NCBI GenBank assembly: GCA_016867855.1 | Contig: VGIO01000010.1 | Span: forward strand, 1-32,008 | Direction: 5' to 3' | Origin: Calditrichota bacterium | GTDB taxonomy: Bacteria; Electryoneota; AABM5-125-24; Hatepunaeales; Hatepunaeaceae | DNA: 32,008 nucleotides | Shown: positions 3,223 to 26,906 of the stretch, piece by piece | How positions within the stretch are numbered: the stretch's first letter is position 1 | Layout: every line of letters starts with the position of its first letter | Notes under the pieces: model-generated | What the model was told of the DNA's origin: nothing | Databases searched by the model: none | The model's input: only the letters and a program-made list of their open reading frames with translations | Program-made: the position numbers and the translations under genes

Positions 3223-4165
3223 ATATATTACAGACCTAAAATCTATCGCGGTCTATGTCTTTCTAAGTGCTGTAGGTTACACTTGGGCGCAGTCCGACTA
3301 TCAAATTTACGACCGTCCGCCGTTTCAATATTATTATGCCGGCCGTGACGAAGCGCTTTTAGGCCGTTTGGACAATGCGCTGCAAGACCGCCTGCGGGAG
3401 ATGGAAGGGTTGTTGGAGGCTCGGCTGCTAGGGACATTGCGCGTCGAACTGCCGCTGACGCGCGGCGAGTTCAACCGTTTGACGCAGGGGCGGGCGCCGC
3501 ATTGGTCCGGCGGGATGGCTTTCCCCCAACAGATGCAGGTAGTTCTTAAGACGCCGGCGTTCATCGACGGCGAAGCGCCAATGGATGCGATGGCGGCGCA
3601 TGAAGTCGCGCATATTTTGCTGCATCAGGCGACGAAAGGTCATCAACTGCCGCGCTGGTTTGAGGAAGGCTTGTGTCAGGTATTGGCTGGCGAGACGCGC
3701 CTGCATTCGTTATCCCGTCTCGGGCGCGCCGCCGCCGCTGACAGGTTGATGGGATTGCCGCGGGTGGATAATGTCCTGTCGTTCTCATCTTCCGACGCCG
3801 ATTTGGCTTATGCTGAGGCGCGCGCCGCCGTCATCACATTCATCGACCATTTCGACTGGACAACTGTGCGGACGGTCATAGCCTCGATCGCAGCCGGACA
3901 GGAATTCGCCGATGCATTCAAAGCCGCCACCGGTTTCGAATACGATTACTGGCAAGCCGACTGGCTCGAAAACGCTCAAAAGAAATATAAAAACATCGTC
4001 TTACTGGATATCGAAAATTACATCTGGATTGGTATCGCTTTATTATCGCTGACGGCAATTGGCGCAGTCTTTATCCGCAACCGCCGCCAGTTAAAAAAAT
4101 GGATGAAAGAAGAGGAGGAAGATGAAGGTCCACCTGAGCCTTCCAACGAGCCAATCCACCCTTAG
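3200..4165 (+). CDS. Membrane-anchored HExxH metallopeptidase (peptidase MA / gluzincin-like)
   Basis: This is a probable zinc peptidase exposed on the periplasmic side. Starting at the ATG inside the priA tail gives a good signal sequence: a basic start ('MLIRWKCK') and a hydrophobic run ending 'GYTWAQ'. The zinc site 'HEVAH' is at about residues 134-138, followed 15-18 residues later by 'WFEEGL', the usual third-ligand Glu context of MA-type gluzincins. Near the C-terminus one membrane segment ('YIWIGIALLSLTAIGAVF') is followed by a basic then very acidic cytoplasmic tail. The gene overlaps priA by 23 bp and the following barrel gene by 44 bp, which suggests translational coupling. The longer start in the ORF track would spoil the signal peptide. 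The substrate is unknown; a role in envelope-protein quality control or secretion is only inferred from context. Confidence 0.75.
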   Translation: MLIRWKCKYITDLKSIAVYVFLSAVGYTWAQSDYQIYDRPPFQYYYAGRDEALLGRLDNALQDRLREMEGLLEARLLGTLRVELPLTRGEFNRLTQGRAPHWSGGMAFPQQMQVVLKTPAFIDGEAPMDAMAAHEVAHILLHQATKGHQLPRWFEEGLCQVLAGETRLHSLSRLGRAAAADRLMGLPRVDNVLSFSSSDADLAYAEARAAVITFIDHFDWTTVRTVIASIAAGQEFADAFKAATGFEYDYWQADWLENAQKKYKNIVLLDIENYIWIGIALLSLTAIGAVFIRNRRQLKKWMKEEEEDEGPPEPSNEPIHP

Positions 4166-5156
4166 AGCGGCGTTGATTACTCTTGTTTGGGCAGCGCTTG
4201 GGCTTAGCGCACCGTTGCTCGCCGCCGGAAGTGCAGCATTTCCTATGCTATCGATGCAGATGGATCCGCGACTTGGCGCTTTAGCCGATGCGGTAGTAGT
4301 CTCCGGTCGTTTGAGCGCTGAGTCAGTCAATCCGGCAAACGCCGCCGGCCAAGAACAAACAGTAGTCATTTCCTATGCCCGGCACCCGATAGACCTTTGG
4401 AGCGGCTATATTGCATTCAATCGACCTTTAAGAAACCTCAATTTCGGCGTCGAACTCAACATATACGACTACGGCGCGTTCGATGTCATCGAAAGAAACA
4501 GTCCGCCGACTGGCGCTTCTTTCAGCGCCGCCGAACATTCGCTGCGGATTTGGACAGCCGGGAAGATAGTCGAACAAATCCAATGGGGCGCGGCAGCGAG
4601 GTTAATCTGGGGTGAAATTGGCGAGACGCGTGCTTCCGGCTGGGCATTCGATTTGGGTTTAACTTATGACCCGCGCTGGGAGAACTTGCGTTTGGGAGCA
4701 GTTTTAAGGCATTGGGGGCGGCAATTCGACAGTTATGGCAGCCAAATATATCGGCTGCCAGTCGAATTTCTCCTCGGCGGCTGTAAGAAAATTGAACACC
4801 TGCCGTTGACATCTTATGCAGTCATTGCCTGGCGCGAGTCGGGCGAAGGTTCATTGGAGGTCGAAGTCTTAGGGCGTAATCTAAGCCCGGCTTTTGCCAT
4901 CGGTGGCGAATTTAAAATCATCCCTAAGCACAGCGACAAACCGTTCTATTTAAGGCTGGGCTATAACAGCCGCGGGCAAGGCCAGCGCGTCGGCAATACC
5001 CGCGATGCCCTAGCCGGCTTGTCCTTCGGTTTTGGTTTTGATTTGAAAAATTACAGTTTCAATTACGCTTATCTACCTCAAGGCGCGCTCGGCGATGTGC
5101 ATAGATTTGGGATGGCGTATGCTTTAGGAGGATACAATGTTCAGTCCCAGAATTAA
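4122..5156 (+). CDS. PorV/PorQ-like outer-membrane beta-barrel protein
   Basis: A predicted signal peptide (about residues 1-36, hydrophobic core 'AALITLVWAALGLSAPLLA') is followed by a region that matches the start of PorV/PorQ family barrels: 'DPRLGALADAVVVSG', then 'ESVNPANAA' where the family usually has 'NPAGLA'. The rest alternates short amphipathic strands and turns, as expected for a barrel. In Bacteroidetes such proteins are the T9SS shuttle or attachment factors PorV and PorQ; assignment to either is not secure. The start has a strong purine-rich binding site ('GAGGAGGAA') that lies inside the poly-Glu codons of the upstream peptidase. The normal barrel end seems to be at 'HRFGMAYALGG'; the last seven codons and the stop lie in the left arm of a palindromic element, so the native C-terminus may have been altered. 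Confidence 0.65.
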   Translation: MKVHLSLPTSQSTLRAALITLVWAALGLSAPLLAAGSAAFPMLSMQMDPRLGALADAVVVSGRLSAESVNPANAAGQEQTVVISYARHPIDLWSGYIAFNRPLRNLNFGVELNIYDYGAFDVIERNSPPTGASFSAAEHSLRIWTAGKIVEQIQWGAAARLIWGEIGETRASGWAFDLGLTYDPRWENLRLGAVLRHWGRQFDSYGSQIYRLPVEFLLGGCKKIEHLPLTSYAVIAWRESGEGSLEVEVLGRNLSPAFAIGGEFKIIPKHSDKPFYLRLGYNSRGQGQRVGNTRDALAGLSFGFGFDLKNYSFNYAYLPQGALGDVHRFGMAYALGGYNVQSQN

Positions 5157-13021: not shown

Positions 13022-14533
13022 TCAGAATTTATATTGCAAAGTAAAACGCAGGAAATCTTCCGGCAGACCGACCAGCAGGACACCGAGCGCCATATTATCG
13101 GCGATGGAGGCGTCAAAGGTCAAGGCTAAATAAGGCAATTTAATCTCATTCCCCGTTTTGATGAGTTGTCCGGAGGCGTCTTTGTAACCGGTGTTGACAT
13201 CTGTAGCGCTGGTAATTCCAAATCCGGCGTTGAATAGCATAATATCCAAACTACCGCGTGCCGCCCAGTTAGGTTTGAGACCACGCTTATAGACAAATGG
13301 CGCGCCGTCTTCGAGCATTTTGTATCTATATGATAGTTCGCCGAAATACTTCGTTAGAGTTATCGAAGGCTTGAAAAAGCTTTGCATAGACGCGGCAATA
13401 GACAATTGGCTGGGTATGTTGGCGGTCATTTTCTTCGATGGAGTAAACATCTTGGGCGTAGTCCGGGTTAATTCAGTTGGGTCGATATTGCTGACATTGA
13501 ATTGCTCTTCGTCCTCTTGCGCGTTCAATTTCAAGGCTGTGAAGCGATGCAATTGTATGTCGAATTCGCCCTCCATACTTATTGGGCTTTGCAGCCTCAA
13601 GTCGGCTCCGAACAGCCATTTCTCGGCATAAGGATACAGCGCTCCGAGCCTTAAAGCCCAAGCCGCGCCGTCGAATTCGCCATTAGCAACGCTGAAGAAA
13701 TCGTTTGCCCACGGGTCGCGCGGATCATTGAAGGCGGATTCCGACCCGGCTTTGGACATAATGCCATCGGTGCGTTGATTGGCATTCATTTGAAAGATAG
13801 CATCGGTGCGCAATAAAGACGCTCCAACCCACCAATCGCCGATTTGCTTAGCGCCGCCAAATGTCCAGGCGTGAGATGAAATGCTAATATCCATATCCAT
13901 ATTAATCGAAGCAAACATCAAAATTGCATCTTCAGGATTGGCTTCGATGGAGCGGATGCGGGTGCGCAACCCGGCATAAATGAGTTTGAAGCCCATCTCA
14001 AGCGGTTGTTGGTAGCCGAAGGCGATTCTATCGACCAGGCGGGGCAGTTTGCCGCCAAACCATTCCTCATCCATCTCGTCGAGCGAGAATGACGCTGCAA
14101 ATCCGGTGACTATCGCGCCATTGCGTAAGATTTCCCCGGTTACTTCAGGGTATATTTTACGCGCCGCCATCTCGAAGTTCTGCGTCGAATTATCGATGGA
14201 ATTTTGGACGGTCGGCGATGGGTCGTAAAAGTTTGTCACATTAAGACCCAAAGCCGGTGAAGACGACAAGGCGAAGGCTCGCCCTTCGATCAAACCCAGA
14301 GCCGCCGGATTGCCGAAGATGATAAAAGGCTCAAGTTTGAGCGGCGCGGTGAATCCGCTGGAGGCGCCCTCTATACCCGCGCCCGATAGCAACGATGAGC
14401 GCAGGCTAATCAATCCCGCCACATTCCCGCCTTCGAATAACTCCATCCGGGAGTCGTAGCTAAAGGCTGCGTCTGTGGATAGGATGACCGTTAAGGCAAT
14501 CAGACCGACAAGATATTTGTATCGCGGTGACAT
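13022..14533 (-). CDS. Outer-membrane beta-barrel protein, unknown specificity
   Basis: A clean signal peptide ('YLVGLIALTVILSTDAAFS') leads into a 503-residue protein made of alternating short strands and loops, ending in '...FTLQYKF', the terminal aromatic residue typical of barrels assembled by the BAM complex. The segment 'FIIFGNPAALGLIEGRAFALS' near residue 75 recalls the 'NPAGLA' stretch of OMPP1/FadL and PorV-type proteins, so a distant FadL/PorV-like channel is my best guess. The start is supported by 'AAAGG' six bases upstream. It lies between queF and the phosphohexomutase gene on the same strand, with 34 and 57 bp gaps. No ligand can be named. Confidence 0.75.
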   Translation of the reverse strand: MSPRYKYLVGLIALTVILSTDAAFSYDSRMELFEGGNVAGLISLRSSLLSGAGIEGASSGFTAPLKLEPFIIFGNPAALGLIEGRAFALSSSPALGLNVTNFYDPSPTVQNSIDNSTQNFEMAARKIYPEVTGEILRNGAIVTGFAASFSLDEMDEEWFGGKLPRLVDRIAFGYQQPLEMGFKLIYAGLRTRIRSIEANPEDAILMFASINMDMDISISSHAWTFGGAKQIGDWWVGASLLRTDAIFQMNANQRTDGIMSKAGSESAFNDPRDPWANDFFSVANGEFDGAAWALRLGALYPYAEKWLFGADLRLQSPISMEGEFDIQLHRFTALKLNAQEDEEQFNVSNIDPTELTRTTPKMFTPSKKMTANIPSQLSIAASMQSFFKPSITLTKYFGELSYRYKMLEDGAPFVYKRGLKPNWAARGSLDIMLFNAGFGITSATDVNTGYKDASGQLIKTGNEIKLPYLALTFDASIADNMALGVLLVGLPEDFLRFTLQYKF

Positions 14534-15181: not shown

Positions 15182-18100
15182 CTATTTCAACACTGCCATT
15201 TTTCGCACGGCGACTTTGTCGCCGGATTGCAGCCGTGCGAAGTAAATGCCGGCAGGCAGGTCGTCGGCGCGCCAAATGTATTCATAACGTCCGTCCTTTT
15301 GCACTTTATCGATTAACCGCGCGACTTCCCGTCCATTAGTGTCCCATATCGTCAGCGAGACCTTTGCCGTGCGGTCGAGGCTATAGACGAGGCGCGTCTG
15401 CATATTGAACGGATTAGGGTGATTCTGCTTCAGCGCAAAGTATTTGGCGAACAGTTCTTTTTCGCGCGTGTTGACAACTGTATCTGTATCCGGCGGCGGA
15501 GGCGTAAGGCTATCGGTAACTTCGAGTATTATCGGCAGCGAGAATAGACCTGGATTGGCGTTGTGGCTGAAATTAATAGTAACACCGTAGAAGCCGTAAT
15601 CGAGGTCGGCGGAGTTGATGGTGAATTCTATCGGTCGGGCTGTGCCAGCCACGAGGGTGTCCAACTTTGGCTCGTAGCGCATCCAGCTCGAGTTCGGCCC
15701 GATTTCGAATACTCCGACCAGGTCTTGTTGGTTGTTGTCGAACACCGCGGCTAGCGCCCAGACCAGATTATTCCATTTGGAAGTAATCGTCATTCCGCCT
15801 CGGCCGGAGGCTGAAGCCGGCAGATGTGCGCCTAAATCGGTCAGGAAGCGGATTTCGCCGGTTTCAGTATTCAACTTATGTATCGATACATCGGCGCGAT
15901 TGGGGTCGTTGGGCGTCGGCACGACATTCGTTATCAAGTATAGATAAAACCTGTCGATGTCATCCTTGAACCAGGCTAAGCCTTGCTCGCGAATCGCCTC
16001 ATTCGTGCGCGGATCTAGTTTGGCATAGGAACGAACTGGACGCAACGTATCGCCGTCGATGCTGAAAACTTGAATAAACGAACTGGAAGTGTTCGTCGAT
16101 AAATAGAGCAAACCTGTTTCGGGGTCGATAGTGATGTTGCGCGGCGAGAAATTCCGGATAGGCATCGTCCAACCGGCAATTGAATCGCCGGAAATAGGGT
16201 CAACTAGAGCGATCCAGGTATTGCCGAGCGCGCAATAGAGCATATCTTCATAATAGACCATATCGCGGATGCCGTATTGCCCGCCGATGCGCGGCTGAGG
16301 CAGACGATCGATGTATCGGCCGCGCCTATCGAAGCGGTAGAAGAAACGCAGCGTGTCGTTGCGGTTGTTGCTGCCGGCGACATACCAGACCGTATCGACT
16401 AATTCGATGCATTGAATTGCGGCATCGCCGACCGTGTCGCTGACCGTGAACATCAACAGCGGATCCCATGCCTCGTCAGGTTCGTCCCGCACCGGACTGG
16501 ACAAACGCTGCCAAATCGGCGGCGGCAGTAAGTTCTCACTGGGGACATAGTTCAGCCGTGTGTTGAACCAGAGTGTGCCGTTGCCGTTGTTGCGCATTGT
16601 AATAGCGCGCTGGGCGACTGAATCGGGCAGCATCTCAAAATAGACGCTGTCCACCGACATTGTAAACTCCGGGTGCAGCAAGGCGAAGTCAACATAAACC
16701 GGATCCCCTTCAATTATGACGATGCCGGTTTGGGTCGAGTCGTTGTAGAATTGCTTGGAAGCCGTTATAGTATAGTTTGTATCAACCAGAATCTCGGGGA
16801 TTTCATAGAAGCCCTCAGCGTCGGTGCGTGCAGAGAAGCCGTAAGTTGTCGTTATAAGCGCGCTTTGGAGGGCTTCGCCAGTCTCAAAATCGGTAACATA
16901 GCCGCGCAGGCAGCCGGTAACAAATTCGATTAAAGTTGTGAATTTTATCGCTCGACGCGGCACAAGCGGCGCCGTTGCTCCGTTGCGTTGATTCCAATAA
17001 GTGTATTCCAAACCGGTGGATAAGTCCGGGCTGGCGATGCCGACCGAAGCAAAAGGCGTGTCCCAAGCCTGATTGCATTGCTGTTCGTCTGTAACATCCA
17101 AATACTGGAAGATAATTTCGCCATCGCCGGTGAAGGATGGATAATGACGCGGGTCGTTGAGAATGACCTGGAATGACTCTATCGTCTGCGGATTGCCGCC
17201 CAGCCGCTTCATACGCGACCATTCGACGATGAAGCGGTTGTTGTCCTCGTCATACCAGGTCCAGATGCCGCTGTTGTTGTCGGTGATGAGGTCGTCCCAG
17301 AAGGGCGCAATCATACCGGGGGGATTTTCGCCGTCTGGGATATGGCGATTGCGGGCGGATATAAGATGGCGGTAATCGCCCATCGCAATCCAGCCGTTGG
17401 TGCAGATAGTGATGCGGTTGAAATTCTGCCCGTAGTATTGGAAATTGAAAGGCAAGTTGACTACTACGGAAGAGTCGTCTTCGGCTGCAATATCGTTCAG
17501 AGTTGTATTTGTGCCGGGTCCGTTGAGCCGGCCGCTGATTTCGACCCACTCGAAGCGCGGCGCGGCAAACCAACTAGTGTCGGTATCGTCAAAGCAGATA
17601 TAGCCATATTTATCAGGTCCAAACGGCTGTCCCGGACGCGGTTCATCGACGACAATAGTGAACCAGACTGTGTCTAAGATGCCGCCGTCGCTCGCCAGCG
17701 CAATACCTAAATCCGCCTTTTGCCCCCCGAGATGGAATGGATGCGCTGAAAGCCTAAACGAGCCTTCTGAACGCGCCGTGTCATTGACGCCAGCCGCCCG
17801 GAATGTGCCGTCGGCTACAGGCGCGCCGATAGTATGTGTGCGGCTGAACAGTGCAGCCGCCATTGGCGGCGCGGCTTTGCCTCCGATATTGACAAGCGAT
17901 ATGCGCAGACTCGCGGCATCGGCTGGACGCAAAGGCGCGTTATCCCAGAGCAGTCTTGGCTTGCCGAATTTGGGACCGACCACGGGAATAGAAACCGAGG
18001 AGTTCCAAGACTGGCCGCCAGCGGTCGTCGTTAGATTGAATACGGCGTTTTGGTTATGCCGCATACCGCCGCCGATTAGCACCACAAAATCGCCGCGGAC

Positions 18101-20479
18101 GCTGGCGGCAGAATCCGGCGCAACATTGAAAAAAGCCTGCCCGGAAATGACTTCCAAATAAGGCGAATCAGTTGTCAATTCGGCTATCATTTCGCCTTGC
18201 GGTGGACGACCGCCATAGTTGGTGATATTCAACGCCAGTTCGAGAGTCTCGGTGGGATTGGCGCGGTTGTCGCCATCGCCGCGCGAGTCGCCCTCGTTGT
18301 CATCATTTATTGTAAATGTCCCGGCGCCGATAAATGGCGCGGGAGTAATATTATAATCGACGAGAACCGGTCTGAGGTTATGTCCACTAACAGTCAGTTT
18401 AATCTGTCCGCTCTGCGTCCACTGCGGATTGAGGTCGAACTGGACGCGGCCTTCAGCGTCGGTTTGCTTCACAATTTGAAAGACCGGCGCATTTTGTTCA
18501 GCTTTATAGAGGCAGACATCGATGCCTTGCGCCGGCACATCTTCGTCGCGGTCGAACATCACTTCGACTGCGAGATGGGTCTCGCCGCGCCTTAAGACTT
18601 CGGGGCGATGCACAAGCAGCGGCTGCGGAACATCGGTGAACAGGTCAACTGCGCCATCGCCCATTAAGTTGGTGATATAGTAATGGCACAGCCAGTTCAG
18701 CATATTGCGGTTTTCAGGATGGTTGACATCGCCGCGTCCGGCATAGTGTGTATAAAGCCCTAATTTGCCAATTAAATGCACATAGCCCATTAATGTCAGG
18801 TTTTGGGCGAAAATACTGTGGATTGAAGCCGAACAATAGATATTATTATAAGCCGTATGCGTCGAACCGGCGCTGCCAACCGCGCCGATTGCCCCGCCGT
18901 TCGGATGCCAGGTGAAACTCTCATTGAAATAACCATTGCCACCGTCTGAAATATGTTCAGCATAATCGCCGGTATTACAAGTTATAATCATCGCATAAGG
19001 CAGCATCCGGTCATTGCGAAGTTGAGGAACCATAGCAAAAGTAAATCTATCGCCCTGCTGCCCCATCCAGAGATGGCCGCGGAATAAGAACATCGACATC
19101 CCGCCTTCGAAATTGTCTATCGTGAACTGCCGGGTATCGGCGATTTGACCGGCCGAGAAATAGAGTTGGCTGACCTGTTGATAGCCATTGTTTAATAGTA
19201 TGCTGCGCGTCCAGCGGCACATATCGATACTCGATAGTCCGCTGCGATAGTCATGGGACACGACGGCGCCGCGCTTCTGCCAGTTGCGTTGGTTGCCTTC
19301 AGCGGGAACATAGGGGTCGGATTCATAGCGTATGAATTTATTAACCATTCCCCGCAGCCGATCGATACTATCGAAAGGCATCCGGCTGACCGCCGCTTCG
19401 GGCAGAACATCGTCGCCTTCCCAGAGACAAAAGTCATTGTCGCTCTCATAAGGGTAACCAAGTCCACTGACATTTTTATCGAAGAATCCGAAGGGGAATG
19501 AGCCGTCGGTGTCGCCGCAGATAATGACGATTTCCGGTGGAATCGTCCATTCGCGGTAAGCCTGCTGCAGTTCGCGCGTCACGGAAGCCGCGTCGTTGCT
19601 GGTCCGCACCCGCAGGATTTGCGCCGTCCAACCCATCCGCCGGCGCCATTCGACCAGCGGCGCCAAGGTGTTGGCGACTTCGTTCCAGGATTGGTCGTCG
19701 TCGATGACATAGACCACCGAGCCGCCGCGCGGACCGCCAGGATCGCGCTGCGGAAGCGGTGGATTCAGCGCTATATTGCTCACTAACTGATGAAAATAAC
19801 GCGATGGCCGCGGCCGGTCGGGGTCGATGACGATGTTTTCGCGATTCTTATCGGTAGCGAAATTTACTTCGATGTCAACATTGTCCAGAACGACTAATTC
19901 GCCGGTGCGAGCTTTCCAGCGCAGCGGATAGACCGTAACCGGCAGAATTCGATAGCCGCGCATTATGGCGGGTTTGCCCAGCGTCACCGGTTCGGGCGGC
20001 CAAAAGCCGTCGGTTTCATTTACAATATCGACTCGTTTTAGCGGCTTCGTCCAGTTCTCGGCGCCCGGTTCGAACATAACGCTTTCATCTCCGGTCATCA
20101 ATTCCGTCTGAACAGGAAATGGATTGACATCGGTTATTTTATGTGAGCGGAGATTTTCGAGATTTAGTTCGACGCCGCTTTGGGGTGGAATGAGTAGGAA
20201 ACTGGTGAGCGCCGGCAGTTCGGGCCAGCCTTCGCCGCCGGCAATCGGATGACCTTCGAAGGCGAAGCGGTCAAACTGTTCGCCGCCGACGGTTATCTGC
20301 TCGCGTTCTAACTTAGCCAGCCGGAAATTCAGCTGCACAACGCTTGGCGTCGCTGCTATTAGCGCCGTCGAATGTTCGGCGACAGCGGTCACAGCAACTG
20401 TTGCCGCGCCGTATAAATGCTGAGGATTGGCGAAAAGCGAAATGAATATAACGAGGAGGAATATTATGTTTTTTTTCAT
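15182..20479 (-). CDS. Secreted gingipain-type cysteine protease (peptidase C25) with T9SS-like C-terminal sorting domain
   Basis: A very large (1765-residue) secreted protease. After a signal peptide ('IIFLLVIFISLFANP') comes a propeptide-like region to about 245. The C25 domain (about 250-640) has catalytic His about 469 in 'FLFRGHLWMG' and Cys about 501 in 'MIITCNTGDYAE', as in gingipains. Then follow CARDB-like beta domains (about 640-940) and a domain at about 958-1170 beginning 'YGYICFDDTDTSW' and holding 'ITICTNGWIAMGD'. A carboxypeptidase-regulatory-like domain ('LRGYVTDFETGEALQSALI', about 1188-1260), a propeller-like region (about 1340-1600) and the sorting domain (about 1680-1765; 'QNHPNPFN', 'GIYFARLQSG', ending 'AVLK') complete it. 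A binding site 'AAGGTG' supports the ATG. It heads a long minus-strand gene run. The protease is inferred to act outside the cell or on its surface. Confidence 0.92.
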   Translation of the reverse strand: MKKNIIFLLVIFISLFANPQHLYGAATVAVTAVAEHSTALIAATPSVVQLNFRLAKLEREQITVGGEQFDRFAFEGHPIAGGEGWPELPALTSFLLIPPQSGVELNLENLRSHKITDVNPFPVQTELMTGDESVMFEPGAENWTKPLKRVDIVNETDGFWPPEPVTLGKPAIMRGYRILPVTVYPLRWKARTGELVVLDNVDIEVNFATDKNRENIVIDPDRPRPSRYFHQLVSNIALNPPLPQRDPGGPRGGSVVYVIDDDQSWNEVANTLAPLVEWRRRMGWTAQILRVRTSNDAASVTRELQQAYREWTIPPEIVIICGDTDGSFPFGFFDKNVSGLGYPYESDNDFCLWEGDDVLPEAAVSRMPFDSIDRLRGMVNKFIRYESDPYVPAEGNQRNWQKRGAVVSHDYRSGLSSIDMCRWTRSILLNNGYQQVSQLYFSAGQIADTRQFTIDNFEGGMSMFLFRGHLWMGQQGDRFTFAMVPQLRNDRMLPYAMIITCNTGDYAEHISDGGNGYFNESFTWHPNGGAIGAVGSAGSTHTAYNNIYCSASIHSIFAQNLTLMGYVHLIGKLGLYTHYAGRGDVNHPENRNMLNWLCHYYITNLMGDGAVDLFTDVPQPLLVHRPEVLRRGETHLAVEVMFDRDEDVPAQGIDVCLYKAEQNAPVFQIVKQTDAEGRVQFDLNPQWTQSGQIKLTVSGHNLRPVLVDYNITPAPFIGAGTFTINDDNEGDSRGDGDNRANPTETLELALNITNYGGRPPQGEMIAELTTDSPYLEVISGQAFFNVAPDSAASVRGDFVVLIGGGMRHNQNAVFNLTTTAGGQSWNSSVSIPVVGPKFGKPRLLWDNAPLRPADAASLRISLVNIGGKAAPPMAAALFSRTHTIGAPVADGTFRAAGVNDTARSEGSFRLSAHPFHLGGQKADLGIALASDGGILDTVWFTIVVDEPRPGQPFGPDKYGYICFDDTDTSWFAAPRFEWVEISGRLNGPGTNTTLNDIAAEDDSSVVVNLPFNFQYYGQNFNRITICTNGWIAMGDYRHLISARNRHIPDGENPPGMIAPFWDDLITDNNSGIWTWYDEDNNRFIVEWSRMKRLGGNPQTIESFQVILNDPRHYPSFTGDGEIIFQYLDVTDEQQCNQAWDTPFASVGIASPDLSTGLEYTYWNQRNGATAPLVPRRAIKFTTLIEFVTGCLRGYVTDFETGEALQSALITTTYGFSARTDAEGFYEIPEILVDTNYTITASKQFYNDSTQTGIVIIEGDPVYVDFALLHPEFTMSVDSVYFEMLPDSVAQRAITMRNNGNGTLWFNTRLNYVPSENLLPPPIWQRLSSPVRDEPDEAWDPLLMFTVSDTVGDAAIQCIELVDTVWYVAGSNNRNDTLRFFYRFDRRGRYIDRLPQPRIGGQYGIRDMVYYEDMLYCALGNTWIALVDPISGDSIAGWTMPIRNFSPRNITIDPETGLLYLSTNTSSSFIQVFSIDGDTLRPVRSYAKLDPRTNEAIREQGLAWFKDDIDRFYLYLITNVVPTPNDPNRADVSIHKLNTETGEIRFLTDLGAHLPASASGRGGMTITSKWNNLVWALAAVFDNNQQDLVGVFEIGPNSSWMRYEPKLDTLVAGTARPIEFTINSADLDYGFYGVTINFSHNANPGLFSLPIILEVTDSLTPPPPDTDTVVNTREKELFAKYFALKQNHPNPFNMQTRLVYSLDRTAKVSLTIWDTNGREVARLIDKVQKDGRYEYIWRADDLPAGIYFARLQSGDKVAVRKMAVLK

Positions 20480-22761: not shown

Positions 22762-25476
22762 ATGTCCTTGAAATTCAATCGGGGCATTCCAGCGCTGTTT
22801 AGCGCGCTTTGTGCAATGTTAGTCCCGTTGGCGCTTAGCGCGGCGGATTACAGTTGGATGAGGCCGGGCGAGAATGTCGAAGCCGACCGGATTTACTTAA
22901 AAATACACTCCCAATATGCGCCTTTGGAGGTTAAAGTCTTTGGTGGACTAGTGCATACAGGCAATTCCGCGCTCGACGCCGTGGCGGATGCCTTTGGCGT
23001 TTATAGAATCGAGAAGACATTTATGATGGAAGCGACGCCGGCCGACCCTAAAGTGCCGGATCTGTCGCGTTATTATACTGCCTTTTTCCCGGAAGCCTAC
23101 GGTCCGGTTAGGCTCATCGAGGCTTATGAGGCTTGCCCGGAGGTCGAATTTGCCGAGTGGATAACCATCGACCGGGTTGACTATATTCCTAATGATGCCC
23201 GTTTCCGCGGGCAGTGGCATTTAAGTCATTGCGGTTTCCCCGGCGCCTGGGATATTTCCGCTGGTTCGCCCAGTGTAGTCATCGGTATTGTTGACTCTGG
23301 CATCGATATGCCGTTCGACGATATGGGCGATTGGGCTATTCACGAAGATTTAGAGCCTAATTTATGGGTGAATCCGGGTGAGGACATCGACCATAATGGC
23401 ATAATGACTTTGGACGATTGGGATGGGCAGGATAACGACCGCAATGGTTATGCGGATGATTTTTTCGGCTGGGATTTGACCGGACGCGATAACTGGCCTC
23501 ACGATGAATGGGCGCGACGCGGCGGCTTAGCGCACGGAACGCATGTTGCCGGAATAGCCTCAGCCGCGACTGACAATGAGATTGGCGTATCCGGCGCGGG
23601 CTTTAACTGCAGGTTAATGATTGCCGCCTGTTATGACTATCGCTCTGACGGATATATCGACAACGGATATAACGGCATCGAATACTGCGGACGCAACCGC
23701 GCCGACATCATAAACTGCTCCTGGGGCAGTAATTCAGCGCCCAATCGCACGCAGATGGCTGTCGTTAATTACGCCCGTTCGCAAGGTTCAATCATTTTTG
23801 CGGCGATGGGCAACGACACTATTTACGACCATCGGGGGCTGCAACTACATCACTATCCGGCTTGCTATGACGGCGTTATTGCGGTAGCCGCTTGCGATTC
23901 GCGCGATGATAAAGTCCTTTTCTCAAATTGGGGTGATTATGTTGACCTGGTCGCGCCAGGCGAAGCCATCTTATCGACCTTTACAAATAATGATTATAGG
24001 TCTTTTCCCGGCACATCGATGGCTTCTCCGTTAGCCGCCGGACTCGGCGCTCTGATGCTCTCTTCGATGAGGTTGAACGAAGTGCAATTGCTCGACCGGA
24101 TGCAGCGCACCGCGATCGATATTTCCGCCCGCAATCAACAATATGTCGGTATCCGTTACCGCATCAACGCCGAGGAATTGCTGAATTCGTCGCAGCCGCG
24201 CTTCGAATTGCTCGAATGGGAAATCGACGAATGGAACGGCAATCACGACGGCCGGGCGGATCCACTGGAACATATTTTCTTTAATATTACTTTACGCAAC
24301 CGCTCGTTTTTTACAAATGCCAACAATGTTCGCATTAGTCTCAGTAATCCCGATTCAACTCTTATCATCGGAAACCAGATAAGGCTGTTAGGTAATATCA
24401 ACACCCAACAGAGCGTTGCAATGTTTGGACAGGAACGGCTCTCGTTTTATGTGCAGTGGTTTTCTAAGCCGCACTATACGACCTTTACCATTAGAATTAC
24501 AGCCGACGGCGGATTTGAGCAGACCTTTGAAAAGTCGATGACCATCGGACATCCTCATTATTTATTAGTCGATGACGACGATGGTTCCACTTTCGAATCT
24601 TATTATAAACAGGATTTGGATCAGCGTCCGGTCGTCCACGATATGTGGTCGATGCAAGATAATGGCGATCTTACCGCTGAATATTTGCAGGGCTATACTG
24701 CGGTTATATGGGCGGCCGGCAATGCGCGCAATCCGCTGACGGTTTCAGAACAGGCGGTTATCAGCGCATATCTTAACGGCGGCGGATATTTATTGCTGAC
24801 CGGGCAGTTCATCGGCGATGATTTAGGGAATACCGATTTTCATCGGGATGTGCTGCGAGCCAGGCATCTTACAGACAACACCAACGGCAGCCAGTTGTTC
24901 GGAGAACCGGGTGGACCTTGCGAGGGGATGCGGCTGCTGCTGGTCGGCGGCGCCGGCGCCGGCAACGGCCGGATTTCGCCCAGCGCTATGGAACCGTTGA
25001 ACGGCGCCCGTCCGTTGTTAAACTATGACAACGGTTCAGGTGTTGGAGGCATCATCTATACCGGTCAATACGGACTAGTCTATTTGGGCTTCGCACTCGA
25101 AGGCGTTTCCGGGATGGGCGGTACGACGCCGCGGACAGTATTCATCGAGCGCCTCCTGGATTTGTTCTATCAATTGACAGCGCCCGATGAACCGGCGGCT
25201 GAATTGTTGTCATCGAGCGTTCATTTATCACCGGCTTATCCCAATCCGTTTAACGGGTTGACGGAATTCCGGGTCGAACTGCCTTATGCGGCTGATTATC
25301 GACTCGAGGTCGTCGATGCCGCCGGACATCAAACCACGTTGCTGCATATTGGGGGGGCAACCGCTGGGATGCACCAATATTTCTGGAACGCTTCAGCCCA
25401 GCCGGCCGGGATATATTTTATAAGACTTAGTCATCCTGCCGGAACCCGGTTGCAGAAAGTTGTCTTGGTTAAATAA
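22762..25476 (+). CDS. Secreted subtilisin-like serine protease (S8) with T9SS-like C-terminal sorting domain
   Basis: A 904-residue extracellular protease. A signal peptide ('LFSALCAMLVPLALSA') and a propeptide (to about residue 150) precede a subtilase domain with an intact triad: Asp178 in 'IGIVDSGID', His258 in 'LAHGTHVAGIAS' and Ser419 in 'PGTSMASPLAAGLGAL'. Oxyanion Asn351 is in 'AAMGND'. A 70-residue insertion between Asp and His is rich in Asp ('DDWDGQDNDRNGYADD'), probably calcium-binding. After beta domains comes a glutamine-amidotransferase-like segment ('HYLLVDDDDGSTFESYY', 'GGGYLLLTGQF'), and finally the sorting domain ('PAYPNPFNGLTEF', 'GIYFIRLSHP', ending 'VVLVK'). The binding site 'AGAGGAA' supports the ATG. 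The next gene encodes a PorD-like protein, which fits secretion by a T9SS-like machine. Confidence 0.94.
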   Translation: MSLKFNRGIPALFSALCAMLVPLALSAADYSWMRPGENVEADRIYLKIHSQYAPLEVKVFGGLVHTGNSALDAVADAFGVYRIEKTFMMEATPADPKVPDLSRYYTAFFPEAYGPVRLIEAYEACPEVEFAEWITIDRVDYIPNDARFRGQWHLSHCGFPGAWDISAGSPSVVIGIVDSGIDMPFDDMGDWAIHEDLEPNLWVNPGEDIDHNGIMTLDDWDGQDNDRNGYADDFFGWDLTGRDNWPHDEWARRGGLAHGTHVAGIASAATDNEIGVSGAGFNCRLMIAACYDYRSDGYIDNGYNGIEYCGRNRADIINCSWGSNSAPNRTQMAVVNYARSQGSIIFAAMGNDTIYDHRGLQLHHYPACYDGVIAVAACDSRDDKVLFSNWGDYVDLVAPGEAILSTFTNNDYRSFPGTSMASPLAAGLGALMLSSMRLNEVQLLDRMQRTAIDISARNQQYVGIRYRINAEELLNSSQPRFELLEWEIDEWNGNHDGRADPLEHIFFNITLRNRSFFTNANNVRISLSNPDSTLIIGNQIRLLGNINTQQSVAMFGQERLSFYVQWFSKPHYTTFTIRITADGGFEQTFEKSMTIGHPHYLLVDDDDGSTFESYYKQDLDQRPVVHDMWSMQDNGDLTAEYLQGYTAVIWAAGNARNPLTVSEQAVISAYLNGGGYLLLTGQFIGDDLGNTDFHRDVLRARHLTDNTNGSQLFGEPGGPCEGMRLLLVGGAGAGNGRISPSAMEPLNGARPLLNYDNGSGVGGIIYTGQYGLVYLGFALEGVSGMGGTTPRTVFIERLLDLFYQLTAPDEPAAELLSSSVHLSPAYPNPFNGLTEFRVELPYAADYRLEVVDAAGHQTTLLHIGGATAGMHQYFWNASAQPAGIYFIRLSHPAGTRLQKVVLVK

Positions 25477-25520
25477 AGAATTATCTACATATTGTCTCAG
25501 TATTATAATGTTATGCTGCC

Positions 25521-26372
25521 TTGAAGCGACGGTCTAAAACATTGCTTTGGTGTTCAATGGGCTTGATATGGACTATATTTTCGAGCCTATATGCCCAACA
25601 TCTGCAGCCGGTTGTAACACTGCATACCGACCGTCTGCCGGAAGAGGAAAAGCAATATCTGTCTGGGCTGGCCGGACAATTGGAGCGTCTGATACGCGCG
25701 GCGAATTGGGTCGAAAAGCCGTATAACTATCAATTCTCGTTGAAAATCGATATTTTCTTTGAGAAGTGGACTCGCACCGCCTTGCAGCGACGATACACAG
25801 CCGGGATATTAGTAGCCTTGAAAGATGGAGTGCAATTCCGCGATCGGCGTTGGGAATTTCCTTATTCACAGGATGAACCGCTGAACTTCAGCGATCCTTA
25901 TCATCCGTTAACCGGGTTAATTGAGTTTTATAACTATTTGGCTTTGGCGCGTGAGATTGACCTGCTCGCGCCCTTAAGCGGCGATAGTTATGGGCAGAAG
26001 GCATATTTTATCTCGCAGAGTTCGCGTTCGGAGGCGTTGTATGCACTCGGCTGGGATGCGAGGCGCGAGTTAGCCGATTATTTGAACCGCGACAGCACGA
26101 TAACATCCTTGCGGCAAGCCGCTTTCTATGCTCGTGCAGGGTATTATTATCTCGATAAGAACATTCAAACTGCTGCTGAAGACAACTTGTGCCGTGCCGC
26201 CGAACTATTATTGCAAGTCCCACCGCAGATGGTCGAACTGCACCGTGACGACCATATTATTCGTTTTGTGGACATCGCCCGCTTCGCCGAAGCGCTGAAG
26301 GAAGCGAGTTTAAAAGATATCCTTAGCCAATTTGAGGAATGGGATGTTGAAAATGTAGAAATATTTCGTTGA
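25521..26372 (+). CDS. porD: PorD-like protein (DUF4835 family), T9SS-associated
   Basis: A 283-residue exported protein. The TTG start gives a proper signal peptide (basic 'MKRRSK', then 'TLLWCSMGLIWTIFSSLYAQ'). The mature part resembles DUF4835/PorD: an initial strand ('PVVTLHTDRLPEEEKQYL'), a central 'WEFPYSQDEPLNFSDPYHPL' followed by 'IEFYNYLALAREIDLL', then 'GDSYGQKA' and a C-terminal helical half with 'FYARAGYYYLD'. In Bacteroidetes PorD is required for T9SS function but its exact job is poorly known. The match is by remembered pattern, not a search. It lies 44 bp after a sorting-domain protease, and the two are probably cotranscribed. The gene symbol is tentative. Confidence 0.65.
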   Translation: MKRRSKTLLWCSMGLIWTIFSSLYAQHLQPVVTLHTDRLPEEEKQYLSGLAGQLERLIRAANWVEKPYNYQFSLKIDIFFEKWTRTALQRRYTAGILVALKDGVQFRDRRWEFPYSQDEPLNFSDPYHPLTGLIEFYNYLALAREIDLLAPLSGDSYGQKAYFISQSSRSEALYALGWDARRELADYLNRDSTITSLRQAAFYARAGYYYLDKNIQTAAEDNLCRAAELLLQVPPQMVELHRDDHIIRFVDIARFAEALKEASLKDILSQFEEWDVENVEIFR

Positions 26373-26386
26373 AATGAGAAATTCTC

Positions 26387-26415
26387 TTGACAAGGATATA
26401 TAAATTCAATAAATT
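26387..26415 (+). promoter_or_regulatory. Candidate promoter for the small fibronectin-like protein
   Basis: A perfect 'TTGACA' lies 17 bp from 'TAAATT' (four of six), just after the PorD-like gene and about 70 bp before the next ATG. This may give the small secreted protein independent transcription. Sequence prediction only. Confidence 0.35.
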
Positions 26416-26486
26416 AAAGATAGCAATGCTTCGTCCCCTTGGTAAATTGGGGGTGAAGGCGAGATGTTTATCAAGTGAGTAGTAAA

Positions 26487-26906
26487 ATGAAACAGCCAAA
26501 ACCGCTTCTTATCGCATTATTAATCTGCTCGATAGCAGGCTTATTAGCCGTGAGCGCATGGGCGGAAACTTTCGTGGTGCGCGAATTTACAGCTGCTAAT
26601 ACCGGCCAGGAAGTGCGGCTGGAGTGGCTTAGCGGCAGCGAGAGCGGCTTAAGCGAATTTCGCGTTCAACGTTCGTTCGACGGCCAAAATTATCGGACAA
26701 TTTATAATGTCAATTTAAAAGGTTCGAACAATCGCTATGTATATATCGACAGCGATTTATTCAAAGGCGAGATTCGAATGGTGCATTATCGTATCGAAGC
26801 CGCTTTCCACGATGGGCGAAACGAGTGGAGCAAGGCTGAAATTGTAACACTTTCGTTTTCAGGACTGCGCCGCACTTGGGGCAGCATCAAGGCGATGTTT
26901 CGATAG
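26487..26906 (+). CDS. Small secreted protein with one fibronectin-III-like domain
   Basis: A signal peptide ('PLLIALLICSIAGLLAVSAWA') is followed by a single beta-sandwich domain of about 90 residues. Its pattern ('EVRLEWLSGSESGLSEFRVQ', 'RSFDGQNYRTI', 'YVYIDSDL', 'VHYRIEAAFHDG') is the one found next to sorting domains in many secreted FCB proteins, where it reads V-L-W-x-T-x-x-E ... F-x-V-x-R-S-x-D-G. Here it stands alone, without a sorting domain, and ends in a short basic, aromatic tail ('RTWGSIKAMFR'). The ATG at 26487 or the GTG at 26475 could be the start. Its position after the PorD-like gene suggests an accessory role in the cell envelope or secretion, but no function can be assigned. 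Confidence 0.75.
   Translation: MKQPKPLLIALLICSIAGLLAVSAWAETFVVREFTAANTGQEVRLEWLSGSESGLSEFRVQRSFDGQNYRTIYNVNLKGSNNRYVYIDSDLFKGEIRMVHYRIEAAFHDGRNEWSKAEIVTLSFSGLRRTWGSIKAMFR

Follow-up and report, generated by a model that had tools for sequence, protein, structure and literature searches.

A small exported protein encoded next to the gene for a divergent PorD homologue belongs to an undescribed family that spans several phyla, has an FnIII fold of the kind found in T9SS cargo, and ends in a nearly invariant stretch of ten residues. With a probability of about 0.5, we read it as an undescribed periplasmic T9SS accessory that uses its C-terminal helix for docking and occurs in FCB bacteria outside most of the classical Bacteroidia.

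Organization of the locus

The window (the whole stretch of DNA analysed, 32,008 nt) comes from a 3.1 Mb genome that is 94% complete. Related loci from its phylum are labelled AABM5.125.24, LCP-89 or Tariuqbacter arcticus, names that published work assigns to the candidate phylum Electryoneota/AABM5-125-24 (PMC10439189). The features of the locus are as follows.

22762..25476, + strand: secreted subtilase (S8), 904 aa (PF00082, 141.6 bits; TIGR04183, 28.1 bits)
25234..25467, + strand: sorting domain at the C-terminus of the subtilase (genome scan: TIGR04183, 33.2 bits)
25521..26372, + strand: divergent PorD (DUF4835), 283 aa (PF16119, 56.3 bits; signal peptide ending ..LYAQ)
26475..26906, + strand: small exported FnIII protein, 143 aa, undescribed family without a Pfam or NCBIfam model
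26487..26564, + strand: putative signal peptide of the small protein (MKQPKPLLIALLICSIAGLLAVSAWA), with a hydrophobic N-terminus, an A-x-A end and no lipobox cysteine
26577..26849, + strand: predicted FnIII beta-sandwich of the small protein, residues 35-125 (AlphaFold, Foldseek)
26874..26903, + strand: C-terminal decapeptide TWGSIKAMFR of the small protein, predicted helix at residues 133-141, directly before the stop codon

All three genes were found where the first-pass annotation had placed them, on the same strand, with gaps of 44 bp between the subtilase gene and porD and 102 bp between porD and the small gene. Judging by its sequence, the small gene more likely starts at the ATG at 26487 than at the GTG at 26475. 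As to the single probable operon proposed earlier, co-transcription is plausible, including that of porD with the small gene. The best promoter-like site between these two genes lies at 26387-26415 (10/12), in a scan that returned no more matches than shuffled sequences did.

The subtilase matches Peptidase_S8 over residues 171-451 (141.6 bits) and TIGR04183 over residues 826-901 (28.1 bits, cut-off 23), while the Pfam sorting domain PF18962 stays below its cut-off (18.3 bits, cut-off 27). With its hydrophobic N-terminus, it thus combines the two features that define a type A cargo, a signal peptide and a TIGR04183 match above cut-off, and its initial description as a cargo protease with a sorting domain holds.

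The PorD-like call for 25521-26372 was likewise borne out, by a DUF4835 match (PF16119) of 56.3 bits (cut-off 25; E 3.7e-15) over residues 26-218. The NCBIfam model T9SS_PorD (NF052317) gives 57.9 bits, whereas its strict equivalog cut-off is 170; since DUF4835 passes its cut-off and NF052317 does not reach the equivalog level, we regard the protein as a divergent PorD homologue. Such a protein is encoded in 37 of 39 Electryoneota genomes, once per genome, and in the window genome alongside the SprA translocon. It shares DUF4835, the signal peptide and the single copy per genome with the PorD of known T9SS; it differs in falling below the equivalog cut-off, in a model that matches no solved structure, and in its pairing with a small FnIII gene. 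The AlphaFold model has a pLDDT of 87.9, and searches by sequence and by fold found no solved relatives, the best Foldseek match (E 0.08) being at chance level and discarded. In P. gingivalis, PorD is a T9SS component that binds PorW/SprE and helps secretion (PMC8754138), whereas in F. johnsoniae it is bound but dispensable (PMC10994853); the PorD-PorW/SprE contact is located below the SprA pore (PMC8754138, PMC10994853).

The first-pass annotation had also suggested a lineage with a divergent T9SS. We saw no sign of one: standard models recognize SprA_N (G000:C193, E 1.7e-50), PorD, a PorV/PorQ-type protein and many cargos, with about 143 type A sorting domains in the genome. The PorV/PorQ-family component lies in the window itself, at 4122-5156 (+), some 20 kb from porD; it matches NF033709 with 107.8 bits (cut-off 90), and its best match is the PorQ model NF033711 (130.7 bits, below the cut-off of 220). 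Two further genes of the window are on the minus strand: 15182-20479 encodes a gingipain-like protein of 1765 aa with C25 propeptide and peptidase, a carboxypeptidase-regulatory domain and a type A sorting domain, and 13022-14533 encodes an exported protein of 503 aa without a Pfam or NCBIfam match.

Conservation of gene order in Electryoneota

Across the phylum, the two-gene pair of porD and the small gene is conserved and the three-gene order is not. In 16 Electryoneota genomes, belonging to families f1, f2, f7 and f8, the two genes are direct neighbours with the same orientation, and the pair is thereby retained in four of the eight families; in families f3 to f6 they lie at separate places. 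A tree of PorD and the small protein left the deep branches without resolution. The usual upstream neighbours of the Electryoneota porD locus are divergently oriented and encode a barrel-like protein of about 600 aa and an outer-membrane-like protein of about 270 aa. Examples of the two, both without a family match, are L094:9558-11540, which has a helix-hairpin-helix-like LPGMTKTKA motif, and L099:7072-7881.

An orthologue of the subtilase precedes porD only in the sister genome G008 (locus L098; 49% identity over the C-terminal 254 aa), where one extra gene separates porD from the small gene. That gene, L098:9344-10012 (-), encodes an outer-membrane-like protein of 222 aa. The subtilase is thus not a conserved part of the porD locus. 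These comparisons bear directly on the original proposal of a dedicated module for secretion or maturation made up of protease, PorD and FnIII protein. The order is indeed the same in the window genome and, apart from the extra gene, in its sister, but the subtilase is missing at the other Electryoneota porD loci with upstream sequence, and both PorD and the small protein are found without it. Moreover, this cargo is one among many: the genome holds about 143 TIGR04183 sorting domains, so nothing ties PorD to this protease in particular. We consider such a module very improbable, and the gene-order comparison largely rules it out as an explanation of the locus.

An undescribed cross-phylum family with a cargo-type FnIII domain

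The small protein is present full-length and in single copy in 38 of the 39 Electryoneota genomes, the exception being only 56% complete. A scan of 84,980 GTDB species genomes yielded 395 relatives; it was seeded by the tail pattern, so that tail conservation in this set is partly by construction, and 80 of the approximately 395 relatives were kept. Their labels cover Ignavibacteria and other Bacteroidetes, KSB1, Calditrichaeota, Neomarinimicrobiota and members of Electryoneota. When 81 members were searched, no Pfam or NCBIfam model matched, and neither TIGR04183 nor PF18962 was found in any of them (0/81); the protein at 26475-26906 accordingly lacks the C-terminal sorting domain that defines a type A cargo. 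A search of the available literature for the tail motif or the family found no description of either. The relatives also begin with a hydrophobic stretch.

Pfam fn3 does not match the small protein. AlphaFold nevertheless models it as an FnIII beta-sandwich, mostly with pLDDT above 90, and Foldseek matches it to FnIII domains in the PDB with a probability of 1.00. Its FnIII profile also matches large FCB open reading frames (for example L267, L268, L269 and L273) in which the residues after the FnIII domain form a C-terminal end of the kind seen in T9SS sorting domains; the profile shared with the FnIII domain before the type A sorting domain matches several FCB cargos at E values of about 1e-20 or lower. 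Because the profile precedes sorting ends in these large reading frames, we read the small protein as a cargo-type FnIII domain in which the tail has taken the place of the sorting domain, in keeping with its earlier description as a detached cargo-like domain. It differs from the cargo domains in standing alone, at about 140 aa and in single copy, and in ending in TWGSIKAMFR. Matches of the A1 profile to heat-labile enterotoxin (E about 0.4-0.8) were set aside as noise.

The C-terminal decapeptide

All 38 Electryoneota small proteins end in [TS]WG[SG][IL]K[AS][MLI]F[RK] directly before the stop codon, and the consensus across the family, TWGSIKA(M/L)F(R/K/Q), is nearly invariant. The motif forms the exact last ten residues in 116 of 119 loci. 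At the DNA level, 38 of 39 genomes contain the pattern of tail plus stop codon a single time, always in the small gene, apart from one extra match in G011. Mean pairwise identity was calculated from sets retrieved by whole-protein or profile search, not from tail-seeded ones: it is 90% for the tail and 37% for the domain in Electryoneota (whole protein or profile), and 81% and 25%, respectively, in Bacteroidota and Marinimicrobia (profile). The codons of the tail vary freely, with serine written both as AGY and as TCN, so that selection acts on the peptide, and a DNA or RNA element was rejected as the cause of the conservation.

In the AlphaFold model the tail is a helix with pLDDT of about 70, lying beyond the very confident FnIII domain. 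A helix of lower confidence following a rigid domain is what would be expected of a partner-binding end. A sorting tag common to many proteins was rejected, because one protein per genome carries the tail; a helix for docking is the better reading. An analogy is offered by another exact C-terminal docking peptide, the tip of bacterial SSB: there too, a short extreme C-terminus is far more conserved than the folded domain. The SSB tip is acidic, however, whereas the tail of the small protein is basic, amphipathic and, if our reading holds, periplasmic.

Two loci (L249 and L240) carry a variant family end, WGMIKEM(F/L)K. In these, the small gene is followed by genes for a protein of 557-591 aa (a putative metalloprotease of the MXAN_6640 type in L240) and an ABC ATPase, possibly a second genomic context.

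Co-occurrence with the T9SS and neighbours in other phyla

Among 50 carriers drawn mostly from other clades, SprA_N was found in 46. Among 297 Bacteroidota, 107 carry a full-length copy of the small protein among the matches listed, and all 107 have SprA; by the same matches, the 68 SprA-negative genomes contain no copy (0/68), and at most 122 of the 229 SprA-positive genomes are without a counted full-length copy. Of 149 Marinimicrobia, 144 have SprA and 39 have a match that reaches the C-terminus, 36 of these 39 together with SprA, so that most SprA-positive Marinimicrobia have no counted full-length small protein. The seven carriers without a SprA match comprise three with PorD and four with neither, and these absences may be gaps in the MAGs. 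By raw counts uncorrected for phylogeny, carrying the small protein thus almost always implies a T9SS, and the reverse is false. Because many SprA-positive genomes have no counted copy, the small protein is not a core T9SS component.

The link to porD is limited to part of Electryoneota and one KSB1-labelled genome (L158). Outside Electryoneota, we looked for conserved T9SS neighbours of the small gene and found none; it lies beside unrelated housekeeping or envelope genes (SpoIID, Maf, MreB, HtrA, M23 peptidase, Omp85-patatin).

Proposed role and alternative explanations

A role as a T9SS accessory factor is the best single reading because it accounts for the porD pairing, the cargo-like domain and the co-occurrence with SprA; its periplasmic location, the docking by the tail and the T9SS as partner are inferred. 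The protein would be exported by its Sec signal peptide and, having no sorting domain, would be retained in the periplasm. There the tail helix, with a hydrophobic face (W/I/M/F), basic residues (K/R) and a free carboxylate, would dock into a conserved groove of a T9SS component, and the docked protein would display its cargo-like FnIII domain near the translocon, where it might gate, scaffold or escort cargo. The PorD/SprE region is one plausible docking site, and PorD one candidate partner, because the small protein is encoded with PorD in Electryoneota and PorD binds SprE/PorW under the SprA pore. Described accessory proteins of the extended translocon (SprE/PorW, SkpA, PPI and Plug) are periplasmic, in some cases dispensable, and arranged around SprA (PMC10994853). 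The small protein would likewise be a periplasmic accessory, although it occurs in only a subset of SprA-positive genomes, and neither Pfam nor NCBIfam relates it in sequence to described T9SS components. More tentatively, it may be an unrecognized T9SS subunit of FCB phyla: with its tail helix plugged into a component of the translocon or the motor, it would hold out an FnIII domain that mimics cargo, and could serve at the SprA pore as a checkpoint, a release factor or a placeholder. Such a subunit would have been missed because the model T9SS organisms do not have it.

The most serious competitor, which we find rather unlikely, is a general FCB envelope factor that serves wall, S-layer or outer-membrane upkeep and whose tail binds a partner outside the T9SS, the link to SprA being a matter of shared ancestry. 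The envelope and housekeeping neighbours outside Electryoneota (SpoIID, MreB, M23 peptidase, Omp85-patatin, HtrA) would suit such a factor, as would the many T9SS-positive genomes without the small protein and the four carriers with neither a SprA nor a PorD match. It is harder to reconcile with the pairing with porD in 16 genomes, the cargo type of the FnIII domain, and the absence of the protein from all 68 SprA-negative Bacteroidota among the matches listed.

Two other explanations start from the tail and the domain themselves. The decapeptide could be a new signal for export or anchoring, which would count as a third kind of T9SS sorting tail and make the small protein itself a surface-displayed cargo. 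It does stand at the exact C-terminus, behind a cargo-type FnIII domain, where a type A sorting domain would otherwise be; yet a single protein per genome carries it, against 143 type A signals in the window genome, and it has 10 residues where a sorting domain is a fold of about 70, so that we think this improbable. The cargo-like domain might also be taken for what is left of a cargo gene whose sorting domain was lost and which survived beside porD by chance. Conservation throughout the phylum, with the strongest constraint at the C-terminus, refutes this, and we give it hardly any credence.

The T9SS is known from a few Bacteroidia, and its parts list in other FCB bacteria is inferred by homology. 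A single-copy protein of several phyla with a nearly invariant end of ten residues and no family model points to a binding site under very strong constraint. Should the partner prove to be a T9SS protein, the family would add a component beyond the reach of the model systems, and its tail would provide a defined peptide (SGVKRTWGSIKAMFR) for pull-down of that partner.
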